From contig JAHWDD010000002.1 of NCBI GenBank assembly GCA_023897205.1, forward strand, positions 1,550,001 through 1,614,000: a stretch of DNA of 64,000 nt, written 5' to 3'. This document shows, piece after piece, positions 51,711 through 58,884 of the stretch. Position numbers and translations under genes: made by a program. The DNA is from Exophiala sp. HKRS030 (lineage: Eukaryota > Ascomycota > Eurotiomycetes > Chaetothyriales > Herpotrichiellaceae). The first letter of the stretch is position 1, and every line of letters starts with the position of its first letter. The notes beneath the pieces are model-generated. The model had not been told where the DNA came from. It made no database searches and worked only from the letters and a program-made list of their open reading frames with translations.

Positions 51711-52067
51711 TGCGTCAAGTGCACATGGGACACATCATTCCAGTTGAAGGGGATATCAAAACTAGTAGGGATGCTGTCACTTCAAGGGTGGGTCCTTTAC
51801 GACCACGAATACGATCACGAACACGGCTACGAAGAGGAAAGCGTTCGCAGAACCCAAAGTGGAACCACGGACAGATCGGGTCGAAGCCATTCCTTCTCGA
51901 TACATATGATGGATTGTCCTCGACTTGTATCTTGAATTCAAAGACTTTTACTTGTACAACACCCAAAGTCCTGTCTCTGCTCGTACAAGCGCATTCCAAC
52001 TTCTTTGCAGACCCAATCTTCGAATTGCTTGATCGTTGCACACCATCTTTGCTCCTCATACAATACC

Positions 52068-52937
52068 ATGGCGTCGACCAGGCTCTCGACAGACTCCCTC
52101 ATCTTTCCAGTCATGACATGCATACTCCTTTTGCCGACTGCGCTGCTCTGGAGCTGGGAAAGCCAGACGACAACCCATAAGACCGATTTCAGCACTCTCA
52201 TTGGGGCCTACCTCATCACTGGCACGATAGGGATGGCCATGGCCATGACCGCCCAAGGCATCCTCTCATATCTCGTGGCATTCATCATATTTCGCGAAAA
52301 TGCAAAAGAATACATCAAGGAATTCACCATGCCGGAAGACAAGATCAAAGATGCGGCCCACCGTGCTAAGCGGCGAGAAATGTCCTCGCGGTGGTCGTAC
52401 AGATTCTTTCTGGTCATCTTCTGTTTCGTAATGGCCGGCGTGATCGAAGAGGGTCTCAAATACCTGGCATTGATGTGCGCCTCCAGATACGGCACCGTCA
52501 CCCACGACCGAGATTACCTGGTCATTCCTGCCGCGGCCGGCGTCGGCTTCGCGACGATCGAGAACATCGCATACGTGTACGGTTCATACGAGAACAACGA
52601 ATCACCTCTCAAACTTGCCATCACCATTCTGGAAAGAACGCTCGTTGGAATCCCTGGGCACTCCATGACGGCAGCTCTCATCGGCGTCAACGTGTTGGCG
52701 AGGGACGTGCGAGGAATACCGATGTCACTGCCACAAATTCTGGGAGTGCTGGTTCTGTTTCATGGTTGCTCTGACCTTGTGTTGTTCCTTGCGAGTGCGT
52801 ACGAAGGGAACGTAGGGTGGGTTCATCCACGTAAAACCTCCACCATATGTGTCGGGCTTGGTTTGGTGATTGGCATTCAAGCGGTACTTGCTGGGCTGTT
52901 GAGGAGTAGGATGCTTGAACTTCAGGTAGCCTACTGA
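52068..52937 (+). CDS. PrsW-family intramembrane metalloprotease
   Basis: 289 aa, single exon, seven to eight predicted membrane helices. The PrsW/CPBP-like active-site set is visible: EEGLKYLAL (EExxK, about residue 127), TIENIAYVYG (ExxxN, about 164), GIPGHSMTAALIGV (His, about 199) and VLFHGCSDLVLF (HxxxD, about 232). Bacterial PrsW cleaves an anti-sigma factor within the membrane; fungal members are uncharacterised and may handle prenylated or membrane proteins. The frame is open upstream to 52005, but the first ATG is 52068 (ACCATGGCG context). Its position next to the Zn2Cys6 gene is noted, but no functional link is shown. Confidence 0.85.
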   Translation: MASTRLSTDSLIFPVMTCILLLPTALLWSWESQTTTHKTDFSTLIGAYLITGTIGMAMAMTAQGILSYLVAFIIFRENAKEYIKEFTMPEDKIKDAAHRAKRREMSSRWSYRFFLVIFCFVMAGVIEEGLKYLALMCASRYGTVTHDRDYLVIPAAAGVGFATIENIAYVYGSYENNESPLKLAITILERTLVGIPGHSMTAALIGVNVLARDVRGIPMSLPQILGVLVLFHGCSDLVLFLASAYEGNVGWVHPRKTSTICVGLGLVIGIQAVLAGLLRSRMLELQVAY

Positions 52938-53424
52938 TTGAGATCACTGTCTTTTGTCAACACTGGCTGAACGGACGTGACTGTTCAGTTGCCATGTACT
53001 CTGCGAGCATGTTTTCAATGGAAGACTATAACGGTACCATGTGTTGTAGTAGGAGAAATTCCATGTCATTAGGTTCTGATGGACTCAGGTGATGCTATTC
53101 ATGCTGCTTTTGTGTCGACTCACACTGACGTCGACGTGACATCAAAAGCGGCGACTGTATTGCAAAATGACTTCACTTGTATCCCCCCCTTCGAATGTCG
53201 TGTAACCTATGGCTGTAACAACCTCTGAAGAATAAACCTCTTGTAGAACAATAATGATTCATGGTTGACAGACAGATAAGGAATCTGCAATCTTCTATGC
53301 ACATGTTCACCCAATCCCTAAGATACCCAGAACACCTCTACCATCGCTGAACCATGCTAGAACATTCAGGTTGTAACAAATATCAAGATTGCATTTGAAA
53401 GAGAATCCAAAGAAAAACGAGACA
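52938..53424. other. Short spacer
   Basis: 490 bp between PrsW-like and PITH genes, same orientation. It contains the PrsW 3' UTR and the PITH promoter. No coding or RNA gene seen. Confidence 0.5.
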
Positions 53425-54096
53425 ATGTCTTCTCACGATCACCATCATCATGGCCATGGTCACGACCACGGACACGGTCATGGCGATGGACACGACCACT
53501 CACACGATCTAGAACCGGCTCTTCAATCTAACCTCTACAAACAAATCAACTTTGAAGGTATCATCACATTCAACGAGGCCGAACCTCGCTCGGGTGCCTC
53601 CATCGTCCAAAAGACCTGGGACGAGCGGATGAACGAAACCCCCATCCTAGAAAGTGACGCCGACGAGCAACTCCTCATGCACGTCCCGTTTTCCGGTTCA
53701 TGTAAACTCTACTCCATCCTCATCAGAACCTCAGACTCCGACTCGGCGCCCATGACGCTCAAACTCTTTCGCAACCGCGACGACATGGATTTCGGCATGG
53801 CCTCCGATCTGGCCCCGACTCAGATGCTGACACTTCCCAAAACCAACGACGTGGCCGAGATCCCCTTGAACCGAGCTCTCTGGAGCGGCACGACTTCCGT
53901 CAATCTCTTTTTCGAGGACAACCACTCCGGCGGCGACGAGGATGTCACCAGGATAGCCTACCTCGGCTTCAAGGGCGATTTCATGGCTCTCAACCGCGAA
54001 CCCGTCAGCGTCTTGTACGAGGCTGCGGCGAACCCACAAGACCACAAGTTGATTCAGGGATTGACTAATGTCAATCGATCCATGCCGGGACAGTAG
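53425..54096 (+). CDS. PITH-domain protein with His-rich N terminus
   Basis: 223 aa, single exon. Residues 4-28 are almost entirely His, Asp and Gly (alternating HDHGHGHG-type repeats), likely able to bind metal ions or simply low-complexity. The PITH domain (proteasome-interacting thioredoxin, C-terminal) follows: LYKQINFEGIITFNE, LLMHVPFSGSCKLYSILIR, PMTLKLFRNRDDMDFG, SVNLFFEDNHSG and RIAYLGFKGDF. In TXNL1 this domain docks on the 26S proteasome; here there is no thioredoxin domain, as in the human PITHD1 type. The start is the first ATG (53425). The gene converges with Vps20, 240 bp between stops. Confidence 0.9.
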   Translation: MSSHDHHHHGHGHDHGHGHGDGHDHSHDLEPALQSNLYKQINFEGIITFNEAEPRSGASIVQKTWDERMNETPILESDADEQLLMHVPFSGSCKLYSILIRTSDSDSAPMTLKLFRNRDDMDFGMASDLAPTQMLTLPKTNDVAEIPLNRALWSGTTSVNLFFEDNHSGGDEDVTRIAYLGFKGDFMALNREPVSVLYEAAANPQDHKLIQGLTNVNRSMPGQ

Positions 54097-58648: not shown

Positions 58649-58655
58649 GACACTA

Positions 58656-58666
58656 TGGCCGAGTGG
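58656..58666 (+). promoter_or_regulatory. Pol III A box of tRNA-Ser
   Basis: TGGCCGAGTGG, matching the A-box consensus; it lies wholly in exon 1, just before the first intron. Confidence 0.85.
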
Positions 58667-58672
58667 TTAAGG

Positions 58673-58724
58673 GTAAGCAGTTGCAGCCGTAATTACGTCG
58701 ATCCGTGTTCTAACGACATTTCAG
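58673..58724 (+). other. Spliceosomal-type intron in the tRNA D-arm
   Basis: 52 nt. Donor GTAAGC, branch TTCTAAC (branch A at 58713), end TTTCAG. It interrupts the 3' strand of the D stem; removal restores GGC to pair with GCC. The position is not one used by the eukaryotic tRNA endonuclease. Confidence 0.8.
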
Positions 58725-58737
58725 CGTGTGACTAGAA

Positions 58738-58770
58738 CCATTTGCATCGCAAAGTGCAATCAGTTTCGAT
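58738..58770 (+). other. Canonical-position tRNA intron
   Basis: 33 nt directly after position 37, the standard site cleaved by the tRNA splicing endonuclease. It contains an internal hairpin (TTTGC, ATC, GCAAA). The exact ends could shift by a base; those given restore a 7-nt loop and a 5-bp anticodon stem. Confidence 0.75.
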
Positions 58771-58778
58771 ATCACATG

Positions 58779-58829
58779 GTAAGCCAGTTCTACTATGTCT
58801 GTTCAAACATTCCACTAACAAACTCCAAG
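58779..58829 (+). other. Spliceosomal-type intron in the tRNA variable arm
   Basis: 51 nt. Donor GTAAGC, branch CACTAAC (branch A at 58818), end CCAAG. Removal joins TG to GGTTCGCCC and creates the GGG-TTCG-CCC variable-arm hairpin. Confidence 0.8.
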
Positions 58830-58843
58830 GGTTCGCCCGCACA

Positions 58844-58854
58844 GGTTCAAGTCC
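58844..58854 (+). promoter_or_regulatory. Pol III B box of tRNA-Ser
   Basis: GGTTCAAGTCC, a perfect B box in the T arm. The three introns push the A-B distance to about 178 bp, long but within the range tolerated by TFIIIC. Confidence 0.88.
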
Positions 58855-58875
58855 TGTTGGTGTCGTGTTCTTTCC

Positions 58876-58884
58876 TTTTTTTTT
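58876..58884 (+). terminator. Pol III oligo-T terminator
   Basis: Nine T residues starting 11 nt after the discriminator base, preceded by TTTCC. A strong Pol III terminator. Confidence 0.85.

Follow-up and report, generated by a model that had tools for sequence, protein, structure and literature searches.

Two segments that split a tRNA-Ser(AGA) gene in the window, by which we mean the whole 64-kb stretch of DNA that was analysed, are with a probability of about 0.92 U2-type spliceosomal introns, judged from the sequence, and this nuclear tRNA gene would exemplify a spread of such introns, across the genome, into genes transcribed by RNA polymerase III (Pol III). At least 25 other genes in the same genome have the same architecture; altogether at least 26 tRNA genes for 15 amino acids hold at least 33 mRNA-type introns besides those at position 37/38. 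According to textbooks, tRNA introns either splice themselves or are excised by the SEN endonuclease, and among other structural RNAs the nuclear rRNA of ascomycetes is a host of spliceosomal introns. Processing of nuclear tRNA by the spliceosome is, to our knowledge, not known, and what is reported here is a known class of introns in a class of host genes in which, as far as we know, it is undescribed.

An interrupted tRNA-Ser(AGA) gene

The original prediction held that a class II tRNA-Ser is rebuilt once positions 58673-58724 and 58779-58829 are removed, and the ARAGORN cloverleaf agreed: with both segments out, the fold was that of a complete class II tRNA-Ser(AGA) whose 37/38 intron measures 33 nt, and in this spliced fold the insertions fell into the D stem and the variable arm, as proposed. 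The unspliced locus was called Val or Cys, both nonsense, and was missed by default ARAGORN and Rfam gathering-score scans of the window. The GTAAGC start, the CTAAC motif and the AG end predicted for both insertions were found base for base, and the A box, B box and T9 terminator, described as intact, are present in the sequence at their positions (Table 1). With a class II cloverleaf, the anticodon AGA, both boxes and a T terminator, the locus is a tRNA-Ser(AGA) gene. The exons of 24, 13, 8 and 36 nt add up to 81 nt, and exon 4 shares 95 % identity over 37 nt with a tRNA-Ser(CGA) gene on contig C9. Intron 1 is preceded by AAGG and spans GTAAGC...TTCTAACGACATTTCAG; intron 2 is preceded by ACATG and spans GTAAGC...CACTAACAAACTCCAAG. 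The branch-type motifs of the two introns read TTCTAAC or CACTAAC, the 3' ends TTTCAG or CCAAG.

Table 1 Features of the tRNA-Ser(AGA) locus (positions in the window) and coordinates of further loci named in the text (contig:position)
Feature	Position	Strand	Basis
tRNA-Ser(AGA) gene: four exons, two GT-AG introns, one 37/38 intron	58649-58865	+	
Exon 1: 5' strand of the acceptor, D loop and some of the D stem	58649-58672	+	sequence; cloverleaf
Pol III A box, TGGCCGAGTGG	58656-58666	+	sequence
mRNA-type intron 1, 52 nt, GTAAGC..CTAAC..CAG, D stem	58673-58724	+	cloverleaf, deletion scan, genome-wide pattern match
Exon 2: positions 25 to 37, anticodon AGA	58725-58737	+	ARAGORN
Ordinary 37/38 tRNA intron, 33 nt	58738-58770	+	ARAGORN, spliced form
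Exon 3: from position 38 to the beginning of the variable arm	58771-58778	+	ARAGORN
mRNA-type intron 2, 51 nt, GTAAGC..CTAAC..AAG, variable arm	58779-58829	+	spliced cloverleaf, splice signals
Exon 4: remainder of variable arm, T arm, 3' strand of the acceptor, discriminator	58830-58865	+	sequence
Pol III B box, GGTTCAAGTCC	58844-58854	+	sequence
Pol III terminator, nine T (T9)	58876-58884	+	sequence
tRNA-Ile(AAT), L119	C5:53730-53980	-	
tRNA-Thr(TGT), L113	C7:2240660-2240842		
tRNA-Arg(TCG), L110	C4:2955529-2955714		
Decayed tRNA-Asp copy, L103	C2:904.9-905.2 kb	-	
U6 gene with 53-nt intron, L130	C5:2143930-2143982	-	
Tandem tRNA-like cluster, L079/L122	C6:3268700-3272500		
Two T arms, L091	C7:1489850-1490420		

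Upon intron removal the cloverleaf score, an in-house measure, rose from 13.3 to 18.9 and thus into the range of intact genes. When all single deletions of 40-75 nt were ranked purely by structure, that of the D-stem intron shared the top (18.9, two products), and removal of the variable-arm intron gave 18.9 against a top value of 19.4. The latter is not top-scoring because the in-house score leaves the length of the variable arm free; the predicted boundary is set by the splice signals and by the variable arm GGGTTCGCCC, common to Ser(CGA) genes. To the question raised with the prediction, whether other intact tRNA-Ser(AGA) genes exist, the genome gave one, L098 on contig C10, with a 37/38 intron only. 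Given this second source, the window locus by itself cannot be taken as essential. The claim that this tRNA needs the spliceosome to mature is favoured by the splice signals and their genome-wide recurrence.

Interrupted tRNA genes in the assembly

The genome surveyed was the assembly of the window itself (59.8 Mb, 50 contigs), in which the window occupies C2:1550001-1614000. A genome covariance search, in which 63 of 1707 candidates were scored, yielded 42 tRNAs above the cut-off and surfaced two of the 26 interrupted genes, both Arg-TCT, which is a warning for annotation. A pattern of CTAAC, AG and B box matched six places, four of them tRNA genes, and nine when reversed. An intron-independent listing of tRNA genes was based on B box and terminator patterns with 100, 38 and 28 matches (controls 12, 12 and 6), some genes being repeated; matches resembling tRNA ends were retrieved and parsed, partly by eye. 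Fifty of 72 candidates with T arm and acceptor reached a cloverleaf score of at least 15.6, the line for intact genes, with just the 37/38 intron removed; the tRNA-Arg(TCT) gene L007, which has a GTAAGC..CTAAC..TAG segment in the variable loop, was excluded by hand from this intact set. The remaining 22 comprise 19 catalogued genes, a decayed Asp copy, a tRNA-like sequence of 308 nt (L079) and a Glu-like one scoring 13.2 (L101). At least five more uninterrupted tRNA genes lie beyond the 72 candidates, and the interrupted share amounts to 26 of roughly 80 tRNA genes. Taken in by the census are T arms that have G-C, A-T or T-A at 52/62 and, downstream within range, five T; the parsed set is without tRNA-Trp, Tyr, Lys-CTT, Pro-TGG and Ala-CGC, and all totals are lower bounds. 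A locus apart from the catalogue, L091, presents two perfect T arms, one of them shortly downstream of TTTCAG, with no findable acceptor partner and may be a tRNA gene that is interrupted still more heavily.

The catalogue consists of one gene each for Ser-AGA (two introns), Ser-GCT, Arg-TCG, Pro-CGG, Pro-AGG, Ala-AGC, Leu-CAA, Leu-TAA, Gly-TCC, Gly-GCC, His-GTG, Lys-TTT, Met-CAT, Thr-TGT, Asn-GTT and Cys-GCA, two for Arg-TCT, three for Asp-GTC, two for Ile-AAT (1 and 3 introns) and three for Phe-GAA (2, 3 and 2 introns). These genes are spread over eleven contigs, and the further loci ruled out a single freak gene. Nearly all introns (32 of 33) have GT-AG ends, the exception being GC-AG (GCAAGT); their length is 47-65 nt with a median of 53 nt. 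CTRAY was present in 30 of 33, located 10-14 nt before the 3' end in 29, and was missing in the Pro-CGG and Thr-TGT introns and in one Ile intron. Introner-like copies were considered, as the first five introns shared the GTAAGC start, and were rejected: across the full set the starts vary, with GTAAGC in 9 of 33 and 14 kinds of start overall. An all-against-all BLAST among the 33 introns gave one pair, of 13 nt, at E below 0.001.

Assigned by eye, 19 intron sites are in the D arm, nine of these right after positions 14-15 (AG), three at 25/26 or 26/27, five in the anticodon arm, five in the variable arm or loop and one in the T loop. The last belongs to the tRNA-Ile(AAT) gene L119, which has three mRNA-type introns and a 37/38 intron, and it splits the B box; introns placed after positions 14-18 interrupt the A box. 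Split A boxes and the one split B box should hurt Pol III transcription. In one Phe gene the internal exons measure 8 and 5 nt. A terminator, four or more consecutive T that begin at most 14 nt past the end, follows each of the 26 genes. ARAGORN assigned the expected anticodon to the spliced forms of 19 genes, misplaced it in five and made no call for two.

Ordinary 37/38 introns were present in 45 of the 50 intact genes, a high share for an ascomycete, with lengths of 7-289 nt; the longest, of 289 nt, sits in the Gly-CCC gene L093, and the His-GTG gene L128 has one of 96 nt. The tandem tRNA-like cluster L079/L122 contains three members that parse as Glu-TTC, Glu-TTC and TTT with 37/38 inserts of 136, 142 and 114 nt, while the fourth, of 308 nt, gave no clean parse.

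Intron class and state of the interrupted genes

The extra segments match the architecture of the mRNA introns of this genome, as far as the three window introns compared are representative of it. These three, placed by reading frame in what we take by homology to be RLI1/ABCE1 (two introns) and a bZIP gene (one intron), are 50, 51 and 56 nt long, start with GTGAGT, GTAAGA and GTAAGT and have CTRAY at distances of 9, 11 and 15 nt from the 3' splice site. Seven stretches of window genes were inspected, and the five gene ends besides these two genes gave none or ambiguous intron candidates. Of the protein genes in the window, two neighbours at 51936-54096 encode proteins about 99 % or more identical to records of both Knufia peltigerae and Exophiala oligosperma; as these species belong to different families, one public record is probably mislabelled. 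The window amylase is 83 % identical to that of Rhinocladiella similis, and these protein matches assign the genome to the Chaetothyriales. A GT-AG/CTRAY candidate was found in 23 of 26 interrupted genes versus 2 of 50 intact genes, which are mostly shorter, and 500 of 5200 shuffles. Plain pattern counts showed no enrichment: GT..CTRAY..AG and GT..CTAAC..AG occurred 1268 and 226 times in the retrieved DNA versus 1895 and 559 times reversed, and the genome-wide intron pattern had 473 matches versus 1004; the reversed control was larger each time, hence these counts are no enrichment test.

Ectopic tRNA introns with a bulge-helix-bulge, cut by the tRNA splicing endonuclease, are known from archaea, Cyanidioschyzon merolae and cryptophyte nucleomorphs, and the segments found here could belong to this class. 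Ectopic and multiple introns are credited there to the splicing endonuclease, or to an unknown route in nucleomorphs (PMC4090602, PMC3978253), and archaea likewise have introns at sites such as 25/26, 45/46 and 59/60 (PMC4090602). However, a bulge-helix-bulge was detected at the junctions of 1 of 33 introns, the same as the background of 3.0 % in shuffled sequences (195 of 6600). The near-invariant GT/GC-AG ends, the branch motif and the narrow range of lengths are not required by the bulge-helix-bulge class, and the 37/38 introns of the same genome have neither GT..AG ends (0 of 45 in intact genes) nor CTRAY at a distance of 10-14 nt (0 of 45). Removal of the extra segments by the endonuclease is thus very improbable, and the spliceosomal reading is preferred.

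As a second alternative, the interrupted genes could be pseudogenes, spare copies that were inactivated while intact genes supply the tRNA. Yoshihisa noted that eukaryotic copies with an insertion in the D or T arm, one among many, are supposed to be pseudogenes (PMC4090602). The intact gene L098 may render the window gene dispensable, and two catalogued copies are broken even without their clean intron: Thr-TGT has an extra 23-nt insert in the D loop, Arg-TCG one of 50 nt that ends with CTAATGTTCTTGCAG, both off the GT rule at their start. With this insert deleted as well, the Arg copy reads as tRNA-Arg(TCG), and ARAGORN still misreads the Thr copy. Possibly the extra inserts are decayed introns in dying copies; insertion can therefore also kill a gene. 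Stem decay, which the original prediction had named as the mark of a pseudogene, was checked in the paralogues and may affect these two copies, whose scores stay low because of the further D-loop insert; with the catalogued introns out, 23 of 26 genes score at least 15.6 and His-GTG, just under the line, 15.3, a full cloverleaf in 24 of 26. The terminators are retained throughout.

A further argument against inactivated copies comes from tRNA-Asp and tRNA-Phe. Three complete tRNA-Asp genes yield an identical mature tRNA of 72 nt (72/72), each with an intron in the D arm, two at one site and the third at another. Their exons are 100 % identical and the introns have diverged: one pair of introns is 58.5 % alike (shuffles: mean 51.7, highest 60.9) and another 62.7 % (mean 48.4, highest 56.7), in comparison to shuffles that do not preserve the splice signals. 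A BLAST search with the mature Asp tRNA found just these three loci, with the 5' half never contiguous, and, not being exhaustive, missed a decayed fourth copy. This copy, L103, adjoins a complete gene, lacks the 5' exon and has a GTATGT..CTAAT..ATAG insert in the anticodon stem; its decay is in line with inactivation. All three tRNA-Phe genes found were interrupted. In a pattern search of the genome that tolerated as many as three mismatches, an unbroken Phe 5' half occurred at one place, in one of these interrupted Phe genes, where the intron end TATCAG replaces GCTCAG; the corresponding BLAST returned the source gene alone and missed two known Phe genes, which makes the mismatch pattern the better test. 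The genome searches turned up no intact Asp or Phe gene, and therefore intron removal would be needed to read Asp and Phe codons. Barring an assembly gap or a missed gene, it is very probably essential for both tRNAs; the argument for essentiality is drawn from these two rather than from Ser(AGA). Inactivated spare copies fit a few genes but are hence a very unlikely explanation for the set, and functional genes with removable introns remain the preferred one.

The boundaries were examined by a deletion scan, in which every single deletion of 40-75 nt was ranked by cloverleaf score only, with the other catalogued introns removed; 32 of 33 introns were taken in, the T-loop intron being outside the scanned stretch. 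For 22 of 32 introns no deletion scored higher than the catalogued product, although in the D loop it often shared the top with several others. Seven stood alone on top: Asp.1, Asp.2, Ala-AGC, His-GTG, Ile.2 at 25/26, Gly-GCC and Phe.2 intron 2. Ten were beaten. Five of these are in the variable region (Ser-AGA intron 2, Arg-TCT.1, Arg-TCT.2, Ser-GCT, Phe.3 intron 2), for which the in-house score accepts any long arm; the others are Lys-TTT, Met-CAT, Phe.1 intron 2 and, each with another insert, Thr-TGT and Arg-TCG. That the D- and variable-arm segments reflect mis-assembly, or sequence of other unrecognised RNAs that parses as GT-AG by chance, draws on these ten and on a parsing partly by eye, in which boundaries were set with an eye to the splice ends, particularly in loops, but is extremely unlikely in view of the shuffle and intact-gene controls, the occurrence of 26 genes on eleven contigs, and the uninterrupted paralogues that fix the insertion by eye in Pro-CGG (L043/L104), Leu-TAA (L074/L099), Asn-GTT (L024/L121) and Pro-AGG (L094/L077).

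Proposed splicing route and its significance

Two U6 genes were observed in the assembly. One, L130, is split between ACAGAGAAG and ATTAGC by an intron of 53 nt (GTTCGT..CTAAC..CAACAG), and the other, L129, is uninterrupted. Because of the GT-AG/CTRAY signals, a U6 intron of like kind and the lack of a bulge-helix-bulge excess, we infer the spliceosome to be by far the likeliest agent for removal of the tRNA-gene introns. The cell thus probably needs the machine for mRNA splicing to make some of its tRNAs. For yeast it is established that the tRNA splicing endonuclease requires the mature domain in place to process the 37/38 intron. As suggested by the boxes and the terminator, Pol III would transcribe the precursor up to the T run; the U1 and U2 snRNPs would recognise GTAAGC and CTAAC, and the spliceosome would excise the introns of the D stem and variable arm. 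The rebuilt tRNA body would fold, and the tRNA splicing endonuclease would then cut out the 37/38 intron, the order of spliceosome before SEN being the presumed one. The introns may have originated from lariats that were reverse-spliced into Pol III transcripts and subsequently returned to the DNA.

Among the closest known systems is the U6 snRNA intron, e.g., of Schizosaccharomyces pombe, likewise a short mRNA-type intron in a Pol III transcript, which is thought to stem from reverse splicing (PMC10484740). In contrast to S. pombe U6, many tRNA genes are hosts here, with up to three introns per gene, and the introns fall within the Pol III promoter boxes and accompany an ordinary 37/38 intron. 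The nuclear rRNA genes of ascomycetes likewise have mRNA-type introns in a structural RNA (PMC11782384), but these are Pol I transcripts and not tRNA. Several introns outside 37/38, in D and T arms, also occur in C. merolae and in the nucleomorph of Guillardia theta; according to PMC4090602 and PMC3978253, those of C. merolae obey the bulge-helix-bulge motif, of which no excess was detected here, and those of G. theta measure 3-24 nt, whereas the introns described here have 47-65 nt, GT-AG ends and a branch motif. Ectopic introns in eukaryotic tRNA genes are supposed to be rare and known from nucleomorphs and C. merolae (PMC4090602), a publication in which the word-start 'spliceosom' is absent. 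At the level of titles and abstracts, no earlier report of spliceosomal introns in nuclear tRNA genes appeared among the matches listed; the literature consulted also included PMC6726248, PMC5844311 and PMC10484061.

If confirmed, the spliceosome would be a third route of tRNA intron removal, and the introns themselves a third class of tRNA intron, with up to three spliceosomal introns per tRNA, an internal exon of 5 nt and split A and B boxes. Intron gain would target Pol III transcripts in general, something already hinted at by the U6 intron, and the genome would offer a natural system for following intron gain at known target sites. We regard it as highly likely that in this chaetothyrialean lineage introns have repeatedly entered Pol III genes and the spliceosome has become obligatory for tRNA maturation, such that no tRNA for Asp or Phe is made without pre-mRNA splicing. 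The supply of tRNA would then be coupled to pre-mRNA splicing, and translation would depend directly on the spliceosome.
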